NCBI GenBank assembly: GCA_024280415.1
Contig: JAJRQE010000222.1
Location: 1 to 49,515, forward strand
Reading direction: 5' to 3'
DNA length: 49,515 bases
From: Spirochaetota bacterium
GTDB lineage: Bacteria > Spirochaetota > Spirochaetia > B11-G9
Shown here: positions 2,859 through 30,775 of the stretch, piece by piece
Numbering within the stretch: position 1 is the first letter of the stretch
Layout: each line of letters opens with the position of its first letter
The notes under the pieces: model-generated
What the model was told of the DNA's origin: nothing
The model's database searches: none
What the model saw: the letters and a program-made list of their open reading frames with translations, nothing else
Made by a program: the position numbers and the translations under genes

Positions 2859-4634
2859 GTGAAAATAAAAAGAACGCACAATTGCGGTGAGTTAAGAAAA
2901 GAACATAAAGATGAGTCCATTGCATTGAACGGCTGGGTGGAAAACTATCGCGATTACGGCGGTGTTACCTTTATCGATTTAACCGATAGATGGGGATTAA
3001 CCCAGATTGTTTTTGATCCGTCTATTTCAGGGGAAGTTCATAAGATAGCCCAGTCTCTTAGGAGTCAGGATGTTATCGCAGTTAGTGGCAAGGTAACTTC
3101 CCGTCCTGAAGGGATGGCGAATGATAAGCTCGATACAGGTGAAATTGAGGTTTACGTTACCGAACTTGAGGTTTTAAATAAATCCAAAACACCTCCATTT
3201 GATATTCACCATGCAGAGGATGTAAATCAGGAGGCAAGGCTCAAATACAGATTCCTGGATCTTAGAGGGCATCACCTTCAGCAGAATATGATTTTCAGAA
3301 GCAGGGTTACTAATATTATCCGAAATTTTTTTATAAACAACGAATTTGTGGAGATTGAAACTCCAATTCTTACAAAGGCTACCCCCGAAGGAGCCAGGGA
3401 CTATCTTGTTCCCAGCCGTGTTAACGAAGGTAAGTTTTTTGCACTGCCTCAGAGTCCTCAGCTTTTTAAACAATCCCTGATGATTTCAGGTTTTGACAGA
3501 TACTTTCAGATTGCAAGATGTTTTCGTGATGAGGATCTTCGTGCAGACCGGCAGCCTGAGTTTACCCAGGTAGATCTCGAGATGGCTTTTGTTGATCAGG
3601 ATGACGTTATGGCTGTTATTGAGAATCTCTTTGAGGTTCTCTTTAAAGAGGTTTTTAACAAGGATTTAAAACTCCCTCTTCCGCGAATGACCTATGATCA
3701 GGCAATGCTGGAATACGGTAAGGATGCACCTGACCTCCGCTTTGGTCTTAAGATTGTGGAACTTTCCGATGTTTTTAAAGATTCCGGGTTTGGTGTTTTT
3801 GCAAATGCCATAGCAGACGGTGGTTTTGTAAGGGCTATTAATATTAAAAATGGTGTTGATTCTCTTTCCAGAAAAGATCTGGATGAGATGACTCCTTTTG
3901 TCAAAACCTACAGGGCAAAGGGTGCCGCATGGATTAAGGTTAATGAAGATGGTCCCCAGTCTCCTATTGTCAAGTTTTTTAAGGGTGGGGAGATTGAAGC
4001 TCTCTATGAAAAGATGGGAGCAGAAACAGGTGATGTCCTTGTTTTTATTGCAGATAAAGAATCGGTTGTATGTCAGAGTCTTGGTGCTCTCCGTCTCCAT
4101 TTTGCGAAGAAACTTAACCTGATTGATGAGAATGAACTCAATCTTTCATGGGTTGTGGACTTCCCTATGTTTGAGAAGGATTCCGATGGAAATCCAACCC
4201 CAACACATCACCCCTTTACAGCTCCTAAACCGGAAGATGTCGACAAGCTGGACGAGGATGTTTTTGCAGTTAAATCCAATGCCTACGATATAATTCTAAA
4301 CGGTTCGGAAGCAGGTGGTGGTTCTGTAAGAATTCACGACAATGAGATGCAGCAGAAAATATTTTCCCTTCTGGGTATTGATGAAGAGGAGGCAAGGGAG
4401 AAATTCGGATTCCTCCTGGAGGCTCTTCAGTATGGTGCACCTCCCCATGGAGGTCTTGCCCTTGGTCTGGACAGGATTATAATGCTTTTTCTTAAAGCAG
4501 AGTCTATTCGGGAAGTTATTGCTTTTCCAAAGACCCAGAAAGCAACATGCCTCATGACAGATGCTCCTGGAGACGTATCTGCAGAACAGCTGGAAGAGCT
4601 CTGTATTGAGTCAACAGTCGAACTGGAAGATTAA
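2859..4634 (+). CDS. aspS: Aspartyl-tRNA synthetase (bacterial type)
   Basis: Class II synthetase charging tRNA(Asp). Domain order is bacterial: OB-fold anticodon-binding domain (about 1-110), motif 1 region (IETPILTKATPEGARDYL), motif 2 (FRDEDLRADRQPEFTQVD), the bacterial GAD insertion (about 290-430), and motif 3 (GLDRIIMLF). The 591-residue length is typical. The start is GTG at 2859 with AAAGGA 8 bases upstream. Because it lies in line with gatA-gatB, the enzyme may be non-discriminating and also make Asp-tRNA(Asn) for GatCAB. That is inference from context; no discriminating residue was assigned. Confidence 0.97.
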   Translation: MKIKRTHNCGELRKEHKDESIALNGWVENYRDYGGVTFIDLTDRWGLTQIVFDPSISGEVHKIAQSLRSQDVIAVSGKVTSRPEGMANDKLDTGEIEVYVTELEVLNKSKTPPFDIHHAEDVNQEARLKYRFLDLRGHHLQQNMIFRSRVTNIIRNFFINNEFVEIETPILTKATPEGARDYLVPSRVNEGKFFALPQSPQLFKQSLMISGFDRYFQIARCFRDEDLRADRQPEFTQVDLEMAFVDQDDVMAVIENLFEVLFKEVFNKDLKLPLPRMTYDQAMLEYGKDAPDLRFGLKIVELSDVFKDSGFGVFANAIADGGFVRAINIKNGVDSLSRKDLDEMTPFVKTYRAKGAAWIKVNEDGPQSPIVKFFKGGEIEALYEKMGAETGDVLVFIADKESVVCQSLGALRLHFAKKLNLIDENELNLSWVVDFPMFEKDSDGNPTPTHHPFTAPKPEDVDKLDEDVFAVKSNAYDIILNGSEAGGGSVRIHDNEMQQKIFSLLGIDEEEAREKFGFLLEALQYGAPPHGGLALGLDRIIMLFLKAESIREVIAFPKTQKATCLMTDAPGDVSAEQLEELCIESTVELED

Positions 4635-20503: not shown

Positions 20504-20561
20504 AGATTTTAAGAAAAAATCTTGCAATTTCAAAATATATTGATAGTCCTGCAACATCGAT
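20504..20561. repeat. Left 58-bp direct repeat (orphan mgtE 3' end; att-like)
   Basis: Identical at all 58 positions to 29431-29488. Read on the minus strand, it encodes the last residues of MgtE (DVAGLSIYFEIARFFLKI) and then a TGA stop formed with the outside bases. The outer edge contains AGATTTT-aagaa-AAAATCT, a short inverted repeat that could be a recombinase core or a weak terminator. Similarity stops abruptly at both ends. Confidence 0.9.
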
Positions 20562-20656: not shown

Positions 20657-20684
20657 TTGATTTTAATATTAAGTTCATTACAAT
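20657..20684 (+). promoter_or_regulatory. Promoter of the X1-X2 genes
   Basis: -35 TTGATT (20657-20662), 16-base spacer, -10 TACAAT (20679-20684). The predicted start is near 20691, followed by AGGAGG before the ATG at 20715. It lies wholly inside the island. Confidence 0.5.
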
Positions 20685-20714: not shown

Positions 20715-21413
20715 ATGGATAAGCAACAAGAACAAATTATCGACGATGCCTGGAGCAGAGAATCGATAATGGAGGTGGAAATCTCTATCATTGAGAGGAT
20801 GATTGGCTGTCGTACAGTCGAAGCAGTTGAAGCTTCAATTAGCTACGCACAATTCCTCAGATTGTCCGGTTTAACTAATGATAATTATCCGCTATTTTTA
20901 AGATTACTTGAAGTTGAGAACCATTGGGTTATTGATTCTTTGGTAGGTATCAAAGATCCATTTCTTTATCTAAGTTCAATTCATCCAAATAATTATATTA
21001 TTCTAAGCAGTTATAGACTTCTTACAGCTTGGCATCCAGGTGGTATTTACCCAAAAACTCTGGCAATTATTTTAGGTGTATTACAAGCTTCTTTCAGTTC
21101 ACCAAAAGATGGTTTCAAAATTTACAATGTTAGTATTAACGATGTTAATAATCTTGGAAAACATCTAAATAAGGAATTGGGTCAGGATGATCCCAATAAT
21201 CGTTGTATTTTAGATATTCTGGATAGGCTGGGTTCATTAGCTGGTACTTCAAGTGATTCAAATATTGAACAGATGGCAAGACAGTCTAACAGTATAAGAA
21301 CGTTTTTCTTTGATAAGAGAAAAAAAATGGAGGATATCATACCTCAGGTACTGCTTGTTAAATCTGATTATATTGCAAAAGAGATAGCCCCAGACAAAGT
21401 TTACGTAGATTAA
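20715..21413 (+). CDS. Island family X protein, copy 1 (X1)
   Basis: 232-residue, mostly helical, soluble-looking protein; I do not recognise the family. It shares a common plan with three other genes in the island: a variable N-terminus of about 40 residues, a core with SYAQFLR and DNYPLFLRLLEVENHW, then a HPGGIYPKTL/IILG block, DVNNLGKHLN, ILDILDRLGSL, and NSIRTFFFDKRKKMEDIIPQVLL near the end. It has no signal peptide, membrane segment or catalytic motif that I can identify. AGGAGG precedes the ATG. It heads a run with X2 (21-bp gap). Confidence 0.8.
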   Translation: MDKQQEQIIDDAWSRESIMEVEISIIERMIGCRTVEAVEASISYAQFLRLSGLTNDNYPLFLRLLEVENHWVIDSLVGIKDPFLYLSSIHPNNYIILSSYRLLTAWHPGGIYPKTLAIILGVLQASFSSPKDGFKIYNVSINDVNNLGKHLNKELGQDDPNNRCILDILDRLGSLAGTSSDSNIEQMARQSNSIRTFFFDKRKKMEDIIPQVLLVKSDYIAKEIAPDKVYVD

Positions 21414-21434
21414 GCAGATTGAGGAGTTAGAAAA

Positions 21435-22208
21435 ATGAAAGAACTTTTTGAAAAAAAACAGAGTTGGTCTCAGGAAGATATAGCCATTATTGAATATGGT
21501 TTATTAAAAGGATTAATGGGAGTTAGAACTACTGAAGCTGTAGAATCAGCTGTAACATATGGAAAATATCTAAATAGTCTGGGAATTACTAATAGTAACT
21601 ATCCTATATTTTTAAAAGTATTGGGTGTAAGGAATCATCATGTAATTGATGGACTTCTAGGAACAAGAGATCCCTTTCTTTTTATGAGTTCCATTCAGCC
21701 TAATTATTTTATAGTAGCTACATGTTTTAGCTTTTTGGCTAAGTATCATCCGGCAGAGATTTATTCAAAAACATTAGGAATAATTCTTGGTGTTTTTCAA
21801 GCTGCATTTAATACCCCCCTGGATGGTTATAAGCTTTATCCGCCAACAATTGCAGATGTAAATAGTCTTGGTAAGCACCTTATTGAAGAAAAAGGTCAGG
21901 ATGATCTTTTAAATAGAAGTATTCTCGATGTTTTGGATAAACTAAGTGAGCTGGAAGGTCAGCACATAGATGAAGATATGGAAGATCTTGCTGTACATGC
22001 ACATAATATAAGGAACAATTTCTTCGATTCAACAAAAAGACTTGTAGATGTAATTCCAAATGTTATTCTGAAATCAGAACCAAATTTAGATCCGGAAATT
22101 GATCCAAGAGAATTAAAAACACTTAGTGAAGCTGAAACATCAGGGACAAAATCTAAACCTAAGACACCTCCTAAGGGTAAGGCTTCAGAATCTGAAGAAA
22201 CAGAGTAA
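21435..22208 (+). CDS. Island family X protein, copy 2 (X2)
   Basis: 257 residues, the longest of the four paralogues. The core aligns with X1 (SNYPIFLKVLGVRNHHVID, HPAEIYSKTLGIILGVFQAAF, DVNSLGKHLIEEKGQDD, HNIRNNFFDSTKRLVDVIPNV). It adds a Lys/Pro/Ser/Glu-rich C-terminal tail of about 30 residues that is probably disordered. GAGGAG lies 8 bases upstream. A strong stem-loop (22223-22260) follows the stop, so transcription from X1-X2 may end here. Function unknown. Confidence 0.8.
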   Translation: MKELFEKKQSWSQEDIAIIEYGLLKGLMGVRTTEAVESAVTYGKYLNSLGITNSNYPIFLKVLGVRNHHVIDGLLGTRDPFLFMSSIQPNYFIVATCFSFLAKYHPAEIYSKTLGIILGVFQAAFNTPLDGYKLYPPTIADVNSLGKHLIEEKGQDDLLNRSILDVLDKLSELEGQHIDEDMEDLAVHAHNIRNNFFDSTKRLVDVIPNVILKSEPNLDPEIDPRELKTLSEAETSGTKSKPKTPPKGKASESEETE

Positions 22209-22222
22209 AAAAACTTTCTGAT

Positions 22223-22260
22223 AAATAACGTACCTGTCTTATACTGACGGTACGTTATTT
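22223..22260 (+). terminator. Stem-loop terminator between X2 and X3
   Basis: AAATAACGTACC (22223-22234) and GGTACGTTATTT (22249-22260) are perfectly complementary, and the T-rich sequence TTTTTAC ends the right arm. An inner GTC/GAC pair extends the stem after a bulge. It suggests X3 is separately or only partly transcribed from X1-X2. Confidence 0.7.
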
Positions 22261-22285
22261 TTACTACTGATCAAGGAGATTTATC

Positions 22286-22969
22286 ATGCAGAGATGGGAA
22301 GAGAGGGGTTGGAGGGAAGAGGATCTTGATAAGCTCGAACTTGCTTTTCTAAAAGATATTTTTAAAATAGAACAAGGTGAAGGTGTTAGTGCTACAATAA
22401 GCTATGCTAAGTTTTTAAACTTTATAGGTGCAAATTCTGATAATTACCCCATCTTTTTAAAGATAATAAGTATGAGAAACCATTGGGTCGTTGATGCTCT
22501 TATAGGTGATAATGATCCCGCTACTTTTTTTAGTCATGTTCAAATGAATTATTTTATTATAAAAGAATGCTTTGAAGCTTTTAAAGTTGCACCCAGGGGA
22601 GGAATTTATCCCAAAAGTCTTGAAGTGTTTTTAGGGATGCTTGAGGTTACATACAGGAATCAACTAGAAGGTTATAGAGTGTATCCATTAACTATTACAG
22701 ATGTAAACAATTTGGGAAAACATCTCAATGAGGAAAAAGATCAAAAAGATTCATTAAATATGATTATACTTACAATTCTGGATAAAATTGCTTCTTTAAT
22801 TGATCCTGGAAGAGAAGAGGAAGATAAGGATATTATTGCTGTTGCTACCCAGGCTAATAATATTAGAGGGAAATTTCTTGACTTTACAAAAAGTCTTAGA
22901 GAAGCTATTCCTGATTTACTTCTTGAAACTTCAGATTATGCCACAAATGAAATTAAACCTGCATCATAA
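22286..22969 (+). CDS. Island family X protein, copy 3 (X3)
   Basis: 227-residue paralogue with the same core as X1 and X2 (SYAKFLNFIGANSDNYPIFL, GGIYPKSLEVFLGMLEVTY, TDVNNLGKHLNEEKDQKD, NNIRGKFLDFTKSLREAIP). It diverges most in the GDNDP-to-HPG section, where VAPRGGIYPK replaces the usual WHPGxIY. AAGGAG lies 7 bases before the ATG. It is the last plus-strand gene of this half of the island and converges on the pseudokinase gene. No known function. Confidence 0.8.
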   Translation: MQRWEERGWREEDLDKLELAFLKDIFKIEQGEGVSATISYAKFLNFIGANSDNYPIFLKIISMRNHWVVDALIGDNDPATFFSHVQMNYFIIKECFEAFKVAPRGGIYPKSLEVFLGMLEVTYRNQLEGYRVYPLTITDVNNLGKHLNEEKDQKDSLNMIILTILDKIASLIDPGREEEDKDIIAVATQANNIRGKFLDFTKSLREAIPDLLLETSDYATNEIKPAS

Positions 22970-22984
22970 TAATATATAGGAAAT

Positions 22985-23060
22985 ATAAATAAACCTGTTT
23001 TTTTTATTGGAGCTAAAGTCACCAACTTTGGAGGTGGCTTTAGATTGCGGGTTTATTTAT
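22985..23060. terminator. Nested stem-loops between converging X3 and pseudokinase genes
   Basis: The outer arms ATAAATAAACC (22985-22995) and GGTTTATTTAT (23050-23060) match perfectly. The inner arms CTAAAGTCACC (23013-23023) and GGTGGCTTTAG (23033-23043) pair over 11 bp with one G-U. The outer right arm contains the pseudokinase stop codon. It is likely a terminator, with a weak U tract on the X3 side. Confidence 0.6.
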
Positions 23061-24807
23061 TTAACAATCCATACAATTTAGATTTTAAATATAATACTAT
23101 TTTTTTAAATAAGGATATATTCTTTAGTGTTCTTTCTGTTTTATTTTCTAAATCGATACTATTGGGATCAGAAGCAGTATTTAGAGATTTAATTAATTCA
23201 TTATTAATTTCTTTGCTTTTTTTTGGCATAATAGAGTCAATTTTTGCAAGTTTAATAAGTATATCTGTAGAATCTGTTTTTGTGTAATGGTCATCCAGTT
23301 GCTTTAATTTATTATCCAAAATATTCTCGAGTTCTTTAGTAAAATATTTATCAGGTAGATCGTGTTCTTTATTATTGAATTTAGTTATTATTTCATAATT
23401 TTTGTAATATTCTCTATTTTGTAAATAGTTCTTAAAGATTGTAAGAGTCTTTTGTAAAGTACTATCTGTACTAATTATTTCAATATTACTAATATTTTTG
23501 TCATAGTCCGGAAAAGTGACATTTTTTTCTTGATTTTCAGAAGCAATAGAATTATTAATATTAGAGATTGTTGATTCTATTGGTTTATTCTCATTAGCTA
23601 ATTTCCTGTAATGGTTTTCTATTTCAATTAGTATTTGTGCAGTTTTTCTATTATTCGTTAAAGATCTGTCCTGGAAACTTAATATCTTACTTTCTTCAGA
23701 ATTATTTACAATTTCATCCACTGTATCTGTTTTATTTACAGTTTGAGGTAGATAAAACTCATTATTCAAATCTGAAATATGTTTGCTTGTGTCTTTTCTT
23801 TTTCTCCTTCTGGAAAAAAATGATATTATGGAAGGAAGTGTATGCAGTAAGCGGAAATGTATTTTAGATCCAATATTATTTTTTTGTATAATTGATTCTT
23901 TTTTGTCTACTTCGGGTAGAATTATTGGTTCAAGCACAGCTTCTTCCTTCCAGTTATTATATTCAGGTATATCAAAGCTAGCCTGATCTGTGTAGGTGGA
24001 GTTAAAATTCTTATCAAATACATTTTTAGGTTTATTATTTCCGATAAAAAATAATTCAAATAATGCTGTAACATCATCTATTGTTTTAAACGATTCGGGA
24101 TTATCAATTAACATGTTTATATTTTTCGTAATAATATTTTTATCACTCACATTATTAAAATTACATAATGAGGAAATTTTAATTAAAATCTTTCCAAAGG
24201 CGTAAATATCGTCAGATAAATTCTTTACGAGATTAGTTTCAAAAGATATATTATTGCTTTTGGAATAAAAATTCCTATAATTTATAATTTCATTTTCAGA
24301 TAAAAGTGAATTCACTATAGAATTTATACCTATGTTACAAAGCTTAACATTGGTATCTTCCTTCCATTGTAACGGAATAAGTATCTCTTCGGGAGTAAGA
24401 AAAAGATGGCTGTGACCTGCATTCTCCAGAGCATTTAATCCATTCAGGGTATCTTCTATTATCTGAATTAATATATTAAATGGAATTAAACGTTTTTCTT
24501 CAAGCCATAAAGATAAGGGGAAATGATCTGATTCATAGTAGCTTTGATATAGGATATTCTCATGGAAATTCGTTTCAAAGGGGATATAAAGATAGGGTGA
24601 GTTCATACGATATAAATCAATTGAAAGCATTTCATAATTTTTTAACTGAATATCTGTTAATGAATTAATATCTCCCTTAAAAAAGGCGAGATGGAAAATA
24701 CTTGCACTATATACAGCCTTTGCATTCATAAATATAAAAAAAGTATTTTCGAAAATCTTTTTATCTATAATATAGCAATTATTAACTGAAGCACTATTAA
24801 AATTCAT
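23053..24807 (-). CDS. Protein-kinase-like pseudokinase of the island
   Basis: 584 residues from the ATG at 24807, which lies 7 bases after the upstream kinase gene stop; a longer in-frame reading overlaps that gene. Residues about 1-245 follow the eukaryote-like kinase C-lobe. HLFLTPEEILI (134-144) occupies the HRDxKPxNIL position, VKLCNIGI (154-161) the DFG strand, and SDDIYAFGKILIKI (198-211) the helix-F signature. The catalytic Asp is Phe136, the Asn of the loop is Glu141, and the DFG Asp is Asn158, so phosphotransfer is not expected. The remaining 340 residues are Asn/Lys/Ile-rich, with a basic RRRKRKD patch and a helical C-terminus. It probably binds a partner or acts as a scaffold. Confidence 0.7.
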   Translation of the reverse strand: MNFNSASVNNCYIIDKKIFENTFFIFMNAKAVYSASIFHLAFFKGDINSLTDIQLKNYEMLSIDLYRMNSPYLYIPFETNFHENILYQSYYESDHFPLSLWLEEKRLIPFNILIQIIEDTLNGLNALENAGHSHLFLTPEEILIPLQWKEDTNVKLCNIGINSIVNSLLSENEIINYRNFYSKSNNISFETNLVKNLSDDIYAFGKILIKISSLCNFNNVSDKNIITKNINMLIDNPESFKTIDDVTALFELFFIGNNKPKNVFDKNFNSTYTDQASFDIPEYNNWKEEAVLEPIILPEVDKKESIIQKNNIGSKIHFRLLHTLPSIISFFSRRRKRKDTSKHISDLNNEFYLPQTVNKTDTVDEIVNNSEESKILSFQDRSLTNNRKTAQILIEIENHYRKLANENKPIESTISNINNSIASENQEKNVTFPDYDKNISNIEIISTDSTLQKTLTIFKNYLQNREYYKNYEIITKFNNKEHDLPDKYFTKELENILDNKLKQLDDHYTKTDSTDILIKLAKIDSIMPKKSKEINNELIKSLNTASDPNSIDLENKTERTLKNISLFKKIVLYLKSKLYGLLNK

Positions 24808-24814
24808 GTTAATC

Positions 24815-25735
24815 TTATCTCTTGTAATAATCAGTAAACGACTTGCCAAGACCGGCATATCTTGCATCAACTTCTTTTTCTTTAGCAAGATCTTTCTCTT
24901 TAAACCAGGTTCTGAAATACTTATTAAGATAATTTCTTCGTTTGTCAAAATTATTTACTATTAAATTAACAGCAGTTTCTGTATTATCGAAAATTTCTTT
25001 CGTGAAAACTGTATTACAAATTCCCTTTAGTACAGATTTTTTAATTTTCATCATTATATTCAATCGCTGTTCAAAATCTTCAATAGAAAACATTTCAAAA
25101 TTTTCGGGTTTAAGCAATGTAAGAAATCTGGTTTTTTCTTCTCTATGCCAACCAAACTTATCTTCCATACCGTGAATTTTCATTTCTTCTGTTTCCATGT
25201 CAGCTTTATCATAATCTATTACAACAATATAAGGTTTGCTATCATCGTCATGAATAACCATATAATTATTGGGATTTCTATCTTCATCAAAAAATAGCCA
25301 TCTATTAATTAAGTCATTACCAAGCATTTTCATAAAAGGTGGATCAAGATAATTATAGCTACCAATCTGCATGGCATTTTGAATATATTTTGTAGAACGA
25401 TAAAACTTACCTTCATGCTTAACAAGAATTGTAGGTGCAGCAGGAGTTTTCATAAGAAAATCAATATAAAAAGCTATTTCCTGGTATTTATGCATAGGTG
25501 CTTCGCTGTCTGGTATATATTTCATCAACCATGGATCACCATTTTTATCAGTTGCTCCAGTATAGCCGCGTATCTTAGCTGTAAAGGGTACAATGGATTC
25601 ATCCCCAAAGTTATTTAGTTCCAAATGGTCTAATGTAGCTACAACTTCATCTATAGAATTATCCAGATATAAATATTTTCTAATTTTTTTATCTACAATA
25701 ACATCATGTATTAACATATTTGTTTTATCTGCCAT
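24815..25735 (-). CDS. Atypical (PI3K/HipA-fold-like) kinase of the island
   Basis: 306-residue soluble protein with the residue pattern of atypical kinases. Lys72 in GDPWLMKYIP may be the ATP Lys, Glu86 in KYQEIAFYIDFLM the helix-C Glu, Asp152-Asn157 in EDRNPNNYMV the catalytic loop (compare DRHxxN of PI3/4-kinases), and Asp174 in VVIDYDKAD the metal-binding Asp. These are by-eye assignments; the family is not certain. All key positions are occupied, unlike the adjacent pseudokinase. AGGAG lies 7 bases before the ATG. It lies between the PPP phosphatase (19-bp gap) and the pseudokinase (7-bp gap), suggesting one transcript and opposed kinase/phosphatase activities. Confidence 0.6.
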   Translation of the reverse strand: MADKTNMLIHDVIVDKKIRKYLYLDNSIDEVVATLDHLELNNFGDESIVPFTAKIRGYTGATDKNGDPWLMKYIPDSEAPMHKYQEIAFYIDFLMKTPAAPTILVKHEGKFYRSTKYIQNAMQIGSYNYLDPPFMKMLGNDLINRWLFFDEDRNPNNYMVIHDDDSKPYIVVIDYDKADMETEEMKIHGMEDKFGWHREEKTRFLTLLKPENFEMFSIEDFEQRLNIMMKIKKSVLKGICNTVFTKEIFDNTETAVNLIVNNFDKRRNYLNKYFRTWFKEKDLAKEKEVDARYAGLGKSFTDYYKR

Positions 25736-25754
25736 AAAATAACTCCTATTCTTT

Positions 25755-26636
25755 TTAATCAGTTACTGCAAATTTTGACTGTATTTCACCATTATTTATT
25801 AAAAGATAAGGCCCCTTGGTTCCAATATTTGTATATACAATATAGTGATTTTTAATACCTATAATATCTTTCCAAATGCCAGATCTGTCTCCTGTCCCCC
25901 ACATAGGGTTGTGACCGACAATAAAAGGTGTCATTTCAGATAAACCCATTCTTTTGTTCATTTTTCTAATATCGGCTTCACCATATTCTTTCATGCTTGG
26001 GGTGCCTCTGAATTCATGAAGGCGGTTCCAGATTAATTGATGATAATAATCAGGACTGTCAACAATATTTATTATTTCTTCCCTGGTTGCTCCAAATCTA
26101 ATTGGTCCGCCATGAGTAATAACAAATCCATTCCCTATTATATATACAGGTAAAGATTCAAAAAAATCATTGACAGTTTCAACGTAAGCTTCACCACGAT
26201 GTTCAAGAAGATAGTTTTTAAACTCAAGACCCTGTTTTATTGCACTTTTGGCCAGTCTTGAGTCAAAGGTATCATGATTTCCTCTTATATAGATAATATT
26301 ATCTTTGTATTTTGTAAATAATTTAAAAACCTCTTCCAGTACAAGTAAAGAGGTTTCCATTTCCAACATTTGACCTATCTGATCATTGTGCATTCCATCA
26401 CCAACAATAATTAGAAGTAAAGTATTATTTTTAAGCTTTTTGGCATTATCTTCATGTGCTACTATTGCTTTTAAATTTTCAATGCTTCCATGAAGGTCAC
26501 CGATAACTATAACTTTTTTTTTATCTTTAGATAGATCTATTAAACCACCAGGATCACCATATTTATTTTTAATTCTATAAGGGTTGTTTCCAACAACAGA
26601 GATAATTTTTTTAATCTCCTTTGCATTTATAACCAT
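25755..26636 (-). CDS. PPP-family (calcineurin-like) metallophosphatase
   Basis: 293-residue metallophosphoesterase resembling Ser/Thr protein phosphatases. The dimetal motifs are in order: GDLHG (46-50), GDG (79-81; GDxxDRG is altered to GDGMHND), RGNHD (118-122), THGG with His175 and GHNP with His242. All metal ligands appear present. AGGAGG precedes the start. It lies in a minus-strand run after X4 (90-bp gap with its own -10 box) and just before the kinase gene, so removing phosphates placed by that kinase is the natural hypothesis. A nucleotide or other phosphoester substrate remains possible. Confidence 0.85.
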   Translation of the reverse strand: MVINAKEIKKIISVVGNNPYRIKNKYGDPGGLIDLSKDKKKVIVIGDLHGSIENLKAIVAHEDNAKKLKNNTLLLIIVGDGMHNDQIGQMLEMETSLLVLEEVFKLFTKYKDNIIYIRGNHDTFDSRLAKSAIKQGLEFKNYLLEHRGEAYVETVNDFFESLPVYIIGNGFVITHGGPIRFGATREEIINIVDSPDYYHQLIWNRLHEFRGTPSMKEYGEADIRKMNKRMGLSEMTPFIVGHNPMWGTGDRSGIWKDIIGIKNHYIVYTNIGTKGPYLLINNGEIQSKFAVTD

Positions 26637-26646
26637 TATACCTCCT

Positions 26647-26671
26647 AGGTTAACCTGAAATAATTATAACA
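26647..26671 (-). promoter_or_regulatory. Extended -10 promoter and palindrome before the phosphatase gene
   Basis: Read on the minus strand, TGTTATAAT is an extended -10 (TATAAT at 26668-26663). Starting near the predicted transcription start is a perfect 10-bp palindrome AGGTTAACCT (26647-26656), in a position to act as an operator. The ribosome site AGGAGG follows. This could uncouple the phosphatase-kinase-pseudokinase genes from X4. Confidence 0.5.
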
Positions 26672-26726
26672 GAAAAATCTTTTAAATTATAGAAAAAAAC
26701 TATATATTGCTATAGATTTGGTATTA

Positions 26727-27431
26727 TTATTTTATTTTTGAAGTAAAATCAAAAAAATCTTTGGTTGGTGAGATTTCAACATCTTCCCTCTTTAACCTAA
26801 TAAGAAGTACTTCAGGTATAATATTTGTTAAATTTTTGGTATTATCAAAAAATCCATCACGAATGTTGAAAGATTGTTTCGATATATTTATTTTTGCTCC
26901 GCTTCGCTCATATTCACCTAACTGACTCATTCTATCCAGAATTTCTAATATCGATGAATTAGTATTTTCCAGCTGATCATTATCTTCATTTAAAAATTTA
27001 CCAAGATTTTGAAGGTCTGTTATATTTAGTGGATAAATATTATAACCATCATCAGAACGATGGTAGGAATACTCTACAATCCCCAATATTGAAAGAAGTA
27101 CTTTAGAATAAATTTGGCCAGGATGCCAGGCAGAAAGAAGATCGAAAGCTCTTTCAATAAGGAATCGATTAGGTTTAATGGTGGAAAAAAGTAATCTAGG
27201 GTCTTTATCTCCAATTAGTTCGTCCACAACCCATTTGTTATTAGTCTCAATAATTTTTAAAAATAAAAGGTAGTTTCTTGAAGTTATACCAACATGTCGT
27301 AGGTATTTTGCAAATGACATAGACGAGCCTACCTCCATTGTGGTAGCTGTGCCAAATATACCATTGAGTATAATATCCCTGTTTTTGTGGATAATACTAT
27401 CCATTTCCTCGAAAGGAAATGCATCCTGCAT
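26727..27431 (-). CDS. Island family X protein, copy 4 (X4)
   Basis: 234 residues from the ATG at 27431 (MQDAFPFEEMDSI). That start is preferred over 27479 because AGGA lies 9 bases upstream and the N-terminal length then matches the other copies. The core is shared with X1-X3: SFAKYLRHVGITSRNYLLFL, AWHPGQIYSKVLLSILGI, TDLQNLGKFLNEDNDQ, ILEILDRMSQLGEYE, SFNIRDGFFDNTKNLTNIIP. It heads the minus-strand run leading to phosphatase, kinase and pseudokinase. That ties the X family to the phosphorylation genes; X proteins could be substrates or adaptors. Function unknown. Confidence 0.8.
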   Translation of the reverse strand: MQDAFPFEEMDSIIHKNRDIILNGIFGTATTMEVGSSMSFAKYLRHVGITSRNYLLFLKIIETNNKWVVDELIGDKDPRLLFSTIKPNRFLIERAFDLLSAWHPGQIYSKVLLSILGIVEYSYHRSDDGYNIYPLNITDLQNLGKFLNEDNDQLENTNSSILEILDRMSQLGEYERSGAKINISKQSFNIRDGFFDNTKNLTNIIPEVLLIRLKREDVEISPTKDFFDFTSKIK

Positions 27432-27549
27432 GTTTTTTTGTCCTGTTTTTACCTTTTTCTGTAATATTAGTATCGTCATAGTACCTTATAAAATAAAGTT
27501 CACATGAAAAGAAATTAAATATAGTGATTTTAATTATATATACCGAAGA

Positions 27550-27555
27550 TAAAAT
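27550..27555 (+). promoter_or_regulatory. -10 box placed for a leaderless transcript
   Basis: TAAAAT ends 6 bases before the ATG at 27562, so transcription would begin on the start codon. No -35 consensus and no Shine-Dalgarno sequence is visible. Confidence 0.35.
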
Positions 27556-27561
27556 TAGAAT

Positions 27562-29397
27562 ATGAATTGGAAAAAGGAAATAGACGAATTATTTAAACTG
27601 GCATCTCTGCATTCCTGGTGCAGTCAGGTTAACGATTTAATTGTTGAGTTTAACAATAAACATAAAAAAAATAACTTAATAGTAGCTTATTTAGTTTCTA
27701 AGCTTAAGGAAAAGAATCTTCCAGGTGAATACTATATTTTGTCTCTGGTACTACTAAATTATCAGGATTATCCTACAAAAGATATTATAGAATTAGCTAT
27801 CAGCTCTTTATACGGTAAGTTAAATAAAAATGATATTCTTTTCTTTAAGGATCATCTGTTTTCCGGTAATTTCCCTCTTTCATCCAGGCTTAGCGAAGAT
27901 ATTACTAATAGATCCTTTCTTTCTTCCAAAGTAGCAATAAAAAAAGCTATGGAAATTGATTCAGTAATATCAAAAAATAATCCAATTATAACAGTTTTGT
28001 ATATGAACTTTATATTAAGTCGCGTGGATATGAATGAAGAAAATAGAGCCATGGTTGCCTTTTTATTGCTCCGGCTTGATGTTGAGCTTCCAAAAAGTTT
28101 AAATGAAAGAGTATTTAAGTACTTAGTTGAGTATAAAGATATTATTCAGGAATTACTTCAAGAGGAGAATGGTGAAACTATAATTATAGATGATATATAT
28201 AGTATAAATGAAAATATTAAAAAGATTCAAATTATACAAAAAGAGAATATTTTAGAAAAGGGAAATATCCCTGAAAGTAATTCAGTATCAGATCAGGAAA
28301 TTATTTCTGAAAACATAAAACCAGAAAATTTAAAGCTGCATAAGATAACAGGATCTGGTATAAGTATTCTAGAATACTCTACCATTAAAACAAAAACAAA
28401 TCATGAAAATACAACTTTATATAAAGAAGAAAAAAAGAGTCCCAAAATAGATATAAGTTATTTATCAGATAATATTCAAATAAAAGATAAATCAAATTTG
28501 AATAAAATGCTGTTATTAAAAAAAGATAAAATACATAAAGTTAAAAATCTGAAAGGAGATATAGAAGAAAAAATCAGATCTAAAAAAACTAAAAATCAAT
28601 CTAAAGAAGTAATAGATATAAGAAAACAAACAAAATCAGATAAAAAAGAATTATCTTCTGTTATAACAAATTTAAAAAGGAATAAAACAAATATTTTTGA
28701 TAAATCAAAAAAAAGTAAATTTGTTAACAAGACAGATATTGCGAAAAAAAGCTGGATAATAGGATTGAAGAAAAATAAGCGAATTTTAGAAAGCATTTTA
28801 GTGGGAGTTGAAAAAAATAAGACATCCATGATAGTTTCCATTACAAAAAATATCAATTTAGGTAGAAAAATATCTGTTTTTAACAAAAGATTATTAAAGA
28901 AATATATATCTGCAGGTATTGTAATAATTCTGTTTATAACTATTGCTGGACTCAAATACACTAAGTCAGTTGCAAGAGATTCTAAAGATTTGAGTTTAAA
29001 TATTATAAATGATGGCTTAATTCAAGATAAGAATTTGCTTGAGTCAGAGAGCCTGGATAACGGAATTGAATTTGTTATACCAGAAACAGATGAAACTAAA
29101 AAAGAATTAGATATAATATATCAAGAGGATATTAAGAACATTATTCCGAAGGATTTTCCACTAAATATTTCAATTAAAAATAATAAAATTATATGGGTAG
29201 TAAAGGAAGGTGAGTCTATTACAGACCTTTTTCTTGCTTTACAGGGGAATAGGCAGAATTTCAAAAATACAGCTTTAGAGAAAATTTCTAATATAACTTG
29301 GGAAAAGTTTTTTACAATTTTTAAAAATAATAATCCTGTTAGAGATTCCTATCACATAATTTATCCGGCAGAAATATTTGAATTACCTATATATTGA
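27562..29397 (+). CDS. Island membrane protein with Lys-rich linker and LysM-like C-terminus
   Basis: 611 residues. Residues 1-200 form a helical, possibly repeat-type cytoplasmic domain; about 205-440 are Lys/Ser/Asn-rich and probably disordered; one transmembrane helix lies at about 447-466 (AGIVIILFITIAGL). The outer part ends in a domain (about 540-611) beginning WVVKEGESITDLFLAL and ending NNPVRDSYHIIYPAEIFELP. This resembles LysM modules (VKxGDTLxxIA...NPxxIYPGQxLxIP), implying contact with peptidoglycan or a periplasmic glycan. It is divergent from X4 with a short spacer and has no ribosome site. It may link the cytoplasmic island proteins to the cell wall. Confidence 0.7.
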   Translation: MNWKKEIDELFKLASLHSWCSQVNDLIVEFNNKHKKNNLIVAYLVSKLKEKNLPGEYYILSLVLLNYQDYPTKDIIELAISSLYGKLNKNDILFFKDHLFSGNFPLSSRLSEDITNRSFLSSKVAIKKAMEIDSVISKNNPIITVLYMNFILSRVDMNEENRAMVAFLLLRLDVELPKSLNERVFKYLVEYKDIIQELLQEENGETIIIDDIYSINENIKKIQIIQKENILEKGNIPESNSVSDQEIISENIKPENLKLHKITGSGISILEYSTIKTKTNHENTTLYKEEKKSPKIDISYLSDNIQIKDKSNLNKMLLLKKDKIHKVKNLKGDIEEKIRSKKTKNQSKEVIDIRKQTKSDKKELSSVITNLKRNKTNIFDKSKKSKFVNKTDIAKKSWIIGLKKNKRILESILVGVEKNKTSMIVSITKNINLGRKISVFNKRLLKKYISAGIVIILFITIAGLKYTKSVARDSKDLSLNIINDGLIQDKNLLESESLDNGIEFVIPETDETKKELDIIYQEDIKNIIPKDFPLNISIKNNKIIWVVKEGESITDLFLALQGNRQNFKNTALEKISNITWEKFFTIFKNNNPVRDSYHIIYPAEIFELPIY

Positions 29398-29428: not shown

Positions 29429-30775
29429 CTAGATTTTAAGAAAAAATCTTGCAATTTCAAAATATATTGATAGTCCTGCAACATCGATTACAGTGGCCAT
29501 AAGGGGACCCGACATAACTGTTGGGTCATAACCCATTCTGTGTATCAGAAGAGGAGCAAGGGTTCCTATCATATTGCTGATAAGTACTACGAAAATAAGC
29601 GATGTTCCTACAATTAGCCCCTGTTCAAGACCGAGTCCCGGGGGGAGAATTATTGATCGAAGTATAATTACCAACCCTGTTATTATACCCATCATTATTC
29701 CTACAAGCAGTTCCTTGACCATAATTACACCTATCTCACGGAACTGGATCTCTCCTGTTGCAAGACCCCTGATCATAAGTGTGGAAGACTGACTCCCGGC
29801 ATTTCCCCCGGTCTGGGTTATTACAGGCATGAAGATAAAGAGAAAAGCAGCACTTATTATTACTCCCTCGTAATGGTTAAGGACATTAGTCGTAATAGTT
29901 CCTACAAGAAGGAGAACTATCAGCCAGGGCACTCTCTTTTTTACCAGACCCCAGATGGAGGTTGTCATGTAGCTTTCGGCTTCTCCTGACATGGCACCCA
30001 TTTTGTAGACATCCTCTGTCTGTTCTTCCCTGATTACATCCAGAACATCATCAAATGTTATATCTCCCAGGAGAACATTATTCTGGTCAACTACAGGAAG
30101 AGATACAAGATCGTTTGCTTCCAGTATTTTTGCTGCTTCCTCCTGGTCGGTATCTTCACGTACGGATATTACCCTTTCGTCCATAATATCTGAAATCTTC
30201 CAATCATCATTCGCAGACAGGATATTCTGAATAGATACTATTCCAATTAACCTCTGTAAATTATCAAGTACATAAATATTGTAGAGGAGTTCCACTTCGT
30301 CTGCATTTTTCCGGATAAACTCAAGAGCCTGTGAAACTTTTATGCTTGAGCGAATTGCCAGATATCTTGGATTCATTATTCCTGCTGCATCATCCTCGTC
30401 GAAACGGAGAAGAAAAAGGGTTTCTTTTTTTACCTCGTCACTCAGGCTTTCCCAGACTGCGTTCCTGACATCAGGATTAACACTCTGAACAATATCCACG
30501 AGATCATCGGGTTCCATCTCCTTGAACAATTCCTTCTTATTTTGCTCAGAGAGGGTGTGAAGTATCCTTTCCTGCTGTGGATCAGTAAGTTCTGTAATAA
30601 GATCTATTTTTTTTTCCAATGGGAGATTAAGAAAAACAAGGGTTTCCTCTTCTTCTGAAAGTACACGCCATTCTTCAGTCAGTTCGACAATATCAACTTC
30701 TTCGAGGAGTTCCCGTATCCGAACAGGATCCAGCATCTCTTTATACTCCCGTAAATGTTCAATCCATGTGCTCAT
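29429..30775 (-). CDS. mgtE: Magnesium transporter MgtE
   Basis: 448-residue Mg2+ channel. The N-terminal superhelical domain (about 1-130, with MEPDDLVDIVQSV) is followed by paired CBS domains (about 135-255), then five membrane helices with the signature TQTGGNAGSQSSTLMIRGL. GCAGGAG lies 7 bases upstream, and the start overlaps the murB stop (ATGA), so it is co-transcribed with murB. Its last 58 bp are duplicated at the far end of the island. The coding sequence is complete, so insertion did not inactivate it. Confidence 0.96.
   Translation of the reverse strand: MSTWIEHLREYKEMLDPVRIRELLEEVDIVELTEEWRVLSEEEETLVFLNLPLEKKIDLITELTDPQQERILHTLSEQNKKELFKEMEPDDLVDIVQSVNPDVRNAVWESLSDEVKKETLFLLRFDEDDAAGIMNPRYLAIRSSIKVSQALEFIRKNADEVELLYNIYVLDNLQRLIGIVSIQNILSANDDWKISDIMDERVISVREDTDQEEAAKILEANDLVSLPVVDQNNVLLGDITFDDVLDVIREEQTEDVYKMGAMSGEAESYMTTSIWGLVKKRVPWLIVLLLVGTITTNVLNHYEGVIISAAFLFIFMPVITQTGGNAGSQSSTLMIRGLATGEIQFREIGVIMVKELLVGIMMGIITGLVIILRSIILPPGLGLEQGLIVGTSLIFVVLISNMIGTLAPLLIHRMGYDPTVMSGPLMATVIDVAGLSIYFEIARFFLKI
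29431..29488. repeat. Right 58-bp direct repeat (native mgtE 3' end; att-like)
   Basis: Perfect copy of 20504-20561. Here it is continuous with the rest of mgtE and supplies its final 19 codons; the stop (TAG) is completed by two island bases. This is the expected position of the gene-proximal attachment site. Confidence 0.9.

Follow-up and report, generated by a model that had tools for sequence, protein, structure and literature searches.

A module of Spirochaetota combining a HipA-fold kinase, a PPP-family phosphatase and a pseudokinase with four paralogous helical proteins on an apparently mobile island

In the eukaryotic LKB1-STRAD-MO25 complex, a pseudokinase and a helical scaffold protein activate a kinase (PMC2686265). 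The locus described here is similar to it in combining a kinase, a catalytically dead Hanks-type kinase and candidate helical partners, which we call the X proteins (X1-X4). The active-looking kinase of our locus, however, has the HipA fold, and armadillo proteins were not matched significantly when the model of X1 was compared with the PDB by Foldseek; the parallel is a functional analogy, not homology. The families of bacterial Ser/Thr pseudokinases ActPs1-3, GLW, CP1, DLHK and DYD likewise have the Hanks fold and degraded catalytic motifs, but CP1 members carry COG3899, which is not seen in our island, and the word "spirochaete" is absent from the review of these families (PMC12599244). HipA and CtkA (PDB structures: 3tpt and 3akl) share the fold of our active-looking kinase and are its top Foldseek matches (probability 1.00). 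Their TM-scores to it are nevertheless only 0.38-0.49, at about 10% sequence identity, it has no match to the Pfam HipA family, and it lacks a HipB partner, its actual partners being unlike those of a toxin-antitoxin system. The Rsb partner-switching system (RsbW, RsbV/STAS, SpoIIE) comes into comparison because X1 and X2 lie within such an operon in other spirochaetes (see below), whereas the island itself has no RsbW, STAS or SpoIIE, and carries the HipA-fold kinase and a PPP-family phosphatase. Kiwa and other systems in PADLOC are also small mobile cassettes, and KwaB weakly matches part of the kinase (23 bits), but the match spans positions 3-120 of the 292 in the KwaB profile, and neither KwaA nor another defence component is present. 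The folds of the enzymes are not new; neither the X family nor the gene set nor the interchange between two phospho-switches was found in the libraries and open-access papers searched, and no description of the module was found in the open-access literature.

The analysed stretch of DNA, hereafter the window, is 49,515 nt long and comes from an uncultured Spirochaetota bacterium (B11-G9; contig JAJRQE010000222.1 of GCA_024280415.1). Positions 20715-29397 are filled by eight genes, all with intact ORFs and all located where the original prediction had placed them; the ORF list contains no further convincing gene in this region, and its GC content is 29%, vs 39% in the window flanks. X1 (20715..21413, 232 aa), X2 (21435..22208, 257 aa, with a short charged C-terminal tail) and X3 (22286..22969, 227 aa) are on the forward strand. 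The pseudokinase (23053..24807, 584 aa, with a long variable C-terminal region), the kinase (24815..25735, 306 aa), the phosphatase (25755..26636, 293 aa) and X4 (26727..27431, 234 aa) are on the reverse strand, and a membrane protein (27562..29397) is again on the forward strand. The coordinates of the pseudokinase and X4 use the family start, and the mechanical ORFs extend to 24948 and 27479, respectively; with family starts, the predicted gaps of 90 bp (X4 to phosphatase), 19 bp (phosphatase to kinase) and 7 bp (kinase to pseudokinase) are exact. Scans for promoters and terminators gave numbers of matches near chance, and it is from such a consensus scan that a candidate X1 promoter comes (TTGATT-16-TACAAT, 20657..20684, forward strand); the TTGATT..TTACAAT pattern is also kept upstream of X1 in loci L036 and L138.

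X1-X4 align over their full length with about 50 invariant columns, X2, X3 and X4 being 39-46% identical to X1, and no further member of the family was found in the genome, which is 3.9 Mb in size. In a phylogenetic tree, they resolve as four deep orthologous groups, that of X3 comprising 44 loci. Complete loci typically carry one gene from each group, which, together with the depth of the groups, is the signature of non-redundant subunits. X1 is confidently predicted to be all-helical (AF2, pLDDT 93.7). Foldseek comparison of this model with PDB and BFVD retrieved only insignificant matches to helical repeats, with TM-scores of up to 0.46, and comparison of the X profile with PDB gave no match. 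Nothing credible was found for X in Pfam, NCBIfam and PADLOC (searched with all eight proteins), in PHROG (six of the eight), or in Pfam when 100 members of the family were used. We considered the Ser/Thr-rich tail of X2 as a universal phosphorylation site and rejected it, since the tails are too variable.

The kinase, probably specific for Ser/Thr, was modelled by AF2 with pLDDT of 88.9, its best Foldseek matches being CtkA and HipA; the conserved Asp and Asn of the HipA-fold catalytic motif are in place, and the motif, DEDRNPNNY, is found in 21 out of 21 relatives. The phosphatase belongs to the PPP family (Pfam PF00149, E 8.4e-14) and has the complete set of metal-site motifs (GDxH, GD, GNHD/E, H, GH); its ligand motifs GDxH, GD, GNHD, H and GHN are invariant in 16 relatives. 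Comparison of the pseudokinase family profile with PDB retrieves StkP/PrkC-type kinases (E 7e-38), indicating homology to the Hanks kinases, and neither the HRD-Asp nor the DFG-Asp is present in any of its 22 relatives. The original prediction of a kinase and a phosphatase beside a dead kinase agrees with this pattern, in which the catalytic motifs of the first two proteins are intact, making them active as far as sequence can tell, and those of the third are lost. No sequence homology between the kinase and the pseudokinase was found.

The membrane protein consists of a helical-looking N-terminal domain of about 205 aa, a basic linker, one clear transmembrane segment at approximately 444-462, and a C-terminal domain. 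The region preceding the transmembrane segment has a net charge of +27, and this positively charged linker suggests that the protein is probably oriented with its N-terminus inside; the C-terminal domain is probably extracytoplasmic. Its description as LysM-like is not confirmed: none of eight C-terminal domains matches Pfam LysM at E<=10. Homology between the N-terminal domain and X, suggested by eye, was rejected by profile comparison.

The X family is present in 20 of 393 Spirochaetota genomes, its genes being clustered where contigs permit. Across the genome collection, it occupies 49 loci, some of them in records labelled SAR324 and Deltaproteobacteria; genome G371 has one module copy. 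The kinase occurs in 17 of these 393 genomes, every one of them belonging to the 20 that are X-positive (Fisher p 4.5e-27, which overstates independence because the genomes are related). Two of the three X-positive genomes that lack a kinase match are 81-83% complete with short contigs, and the third, G362, apparently has a degenerate copy. Matches to the membrane protein with E<1e-10 are confined to X-positive genomes. The co-occurrence of X and kinase is near-absolute, as expected if the genes form a multi-gene system, and separate occurrence of the families on a scale that would contradict such a system was not seen. In addition to the arrangement seen in the window (architecture A), there is a single-strand version, X4-PPP-kinase-X1-X2-X3-pseudokinase (B), and there are loci with additional X copies (C and D), which have the kinase close by, except that in SAR324 it is encoded at another place in the genome. 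The separation of the kinase gene from the X cluster in SAR324 counts against a joint signalling module, as does the pseudokinase being absent or unrecognised in some loci. The genes nevertheless travel together across many environmental spirochaetes, and the module is therefore real, selectively maintained and undescribed; its role is probably in signalling. In one locus (L043:10001-11329), X1 and X2 are fused in frame in a single ORF; kinase and phosphatase were not found there, and this copy is probably degenerate. In SAR324 (L157, L158, L159), the kinase that lies away from the X cluster is near a gene for a DHH-type phosphoesterase-like protein.

In other spirochaetes, which lack the module's kinase and phosphatase, X1 and X2 occur alone, within an operon with an RsbW-type HATPase (architecture E). 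The gene order is RsbW-type HATPase, 81-aa protein, X1, X2, 362-aa protein, STAS, hydrolase, STAS; the operon is conserved (L065, L067, L069, L071-L074), with SpoIIE and ParA nearby in the longer loci. The X pair is thus joined to two unrelated Ser/Thr phospho-switches, one in the island and one in this operon. The kinase is absent from three genomes with this operon, and a search for the 362-aa protein, run without a positive control, gave no match in 14 module-bearing genomes, so that the two settings look like alternatives. Genes for FGE-domain proteins are also found near the operon in the longer loci of this type.

The island is flanked on both sides by a perfect 58-bp direct repeat, which had been missed in the original prediction. 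The left, attL-like copy (20504..20561) is between a UroD-like gene and X1, and the right, attR-like copy (29431..29488), identical to it in 58 of 58 positions, is the 3' end of mgtE. In the congener G397, the UroD-like gene and mgtE are approximately 0.7 kb apart on one contig, the module is absent from this site, and the junction has a single copy of the 58-bp sequence, 84% identical. The island shows two marks of an integrative element or genomic island: repeated sequence at the 3' end of a gene, and a related genome in which the site is unoccupied. Two small genes, encoding a 150-aa nucleotidyltransferase-like protein and a protein of 67 aa, replace the module at this junction (L119, G397:C231, reverse complement 3359-3947), which suggests that the 3' end of mgtE is an insertion hotspot. 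In G394-G397, the module is downstream of the iorAB-acs genes, and in G396 its other end adjoins tRNA-Asn. The acs-tRNA-Asn junction is empty in G398 and G256 (G398 has no X match but is 68% complete), and the genome that contains the window has a Memo-like gene directly after acs. The acs-tRNA-Asn junction (L036, L138, L147, L148, L149) provides another insertion site, adjacent to a tRNA gene. The kinase and phosphatase are 85% and 88% identical to those of G397 in the window and 89% and 87% identical in G395, although AcsA is 80% identical to that of G397 in the window's genome vs 91% in G395. Because the two enzymes are about equally close to G397 and AcsA is not, the module has probably moved from one congener to another, landing at mgtE. 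The repeat, the relocated site and the presence or absence of the module beside tRNA-Asn all favour the earlier view that it is mobile. There is no integrase or recombinase among the eight genes (ORF list; Pfam scan), and no att-like repeats of note were found within 2.5 kb of the other module loci.

We propose, with roughly even confidence for and against, that the module is a reversible Ser/Thr-phosphorylation switch acting on a membrane-tied hetero-assembly of X proteins, with the kinase tuned by the pseudokinase and a helical scaffold. X1-X4 would form a cytoplasmic hetero-oligomeric helical scaffold. The HipA-fold kinase would phosphorylate one or more Ser/Thr residues in an X protein, in the membrane protein's basic linker or in the tail of the pseudokinase, and the PPP phosphatase would remove this phosphate. 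The dead Hanks kinase, together with the helical X partners, may set the activity of the kinase in a manner resembling the action of STRAD and MO25 on LKB1, and the membrane protein may couple the assembly to the cell envelope, the signal passing either in or out. A signalling module is supported by the co-occurrence of the genes, the deep X groups, the X1-X2 fusion, the active-site motifs, the Rsb-type operon and low dN/dS values. Specifically, the occurrence of X1-X2 near either switch, the four X subunits, the kinase with its dead counterpart and the membrane connector suggest that X proteins assemble at the envelope under the control of phosphorylation.

Selection on the module bears on this proposal and on its rivals. 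The values of dN/dS, which are rough because several genes have a nearly saturated dS, are 0.016-0.07 for X1-X4, kinase and phosphatase, indicating strong purifying selection, and are 0.33 for the pseudokinase and 0.26 for the membrane protein. X1 is 97-98% identical to its orthologues in G394, G395 and G397 (dN/dS 0.035), and X4 is 94% identical in G397 (dN/dS 0.016). That the island is decaying or hitchhiking, and has no function for the host, is hardly credible: the missing integrase and the apparently degenerate L043 copy, with its fused X1-X2 and no kinase or phosphatase found, would fit, but the window has eight intact ORFs, the orthologous groups are old, and dN/dS far below 1 already contradicts such an explanation. 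Another reading is anti-phage defence or abortive infection, with a HipA-like kinase triggered by phage; the original prediction had named defence as a frequent role of compact mobile kinase modules. Kinase modules occur in defence systems, and the mobility, the att-like repeat, the patchy distribution and the relocation between congeners are of the kind expected of them. Positive evidence, however, did not emerge: PADLOC gives no more than the KwaB match to the kinase, weak at 23 bits, and an AbiH match to the phosphatase that is weaker still, the island encodes neither a nuclease nor another effector, and no phage, plasmid or viral homologues came up when the kinase was compared with viral contigs and X2 with phages and plasmids. 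The X proteins and the kinase, moreover, are not fast-changing, and their very low dN/dS is no less compatible with signalling or a housekeeping function than with defence. We regard the defence reading as improbable.

More improbable still is a HipA-type toxin-antitoxin system in which the remaining proteins serve as antitoxins. The HipA/CtkA fold of the kinase is in its favour, and addiction could maintain an island that has no integrase, but there is no HipB-like DNA-binding (HTH) partner in the island, the module has a dedicated PPP phosphatase and four conserved X paralogues, and in SAR324 the kinase is apart from X without loss. It is less difficult, if still unlikely, to imagine that X1-X4 build a cell structure, such as a ring, a filament or a scaffold linked to the envelope, and that phosphorylation switches its assembly; the enzymes would then serve this structure and not signalling at large. 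Four paralogues are inherited together, X1 is 97% identical between genomes in which AcsA is only about 80% identical, a membrane anchor is present, and a ParA-type ATPase is found beside the X1-X2 operon variant; against this, neither PDB nor BFVD has a structural protein that matches, and there is no match to a known filament or microcompartment family.

Going beyond the phosphorylation switch itself, we tentatively suggest, with somewhat more doubt than confidence, that the module may represent a new machine, in which a four-subunit X scaffold has a pseudokinase regulator and the core pair is controlled interchangeably by HipA-fold/PPP or RsbW/SpoIIE enzymes, and which would be a bacterial analogue of the kinase-pseudokinase-helical scaffold complexes. 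The module is widely shared and undescribed, and nothing in the searched libraries matches the protein family at its core. On an island the size of an operon, it unites, in bacteria, a kinase that looks active and its cognate phosphatase with a dead kinase that is conserved and with a putative helical scaffold. If our proposal is correct, HipA-fold kinases gain a role outside toxin-antitoxin systems. Divergent X relatives of 188-189 aa are encoded at L090:9186-9755, L091:8859-9425 and L068:16687-17256, and the stand-alone genes in L090 and L091, which are outside modules, have no neighbours in common. In another locus (L077:14723-16126), a second copy of the PPP phosphatase apparently has a pair of CBS domains in front of it, as judged by eye, hinting at control of the phosphatase by nucleotides.
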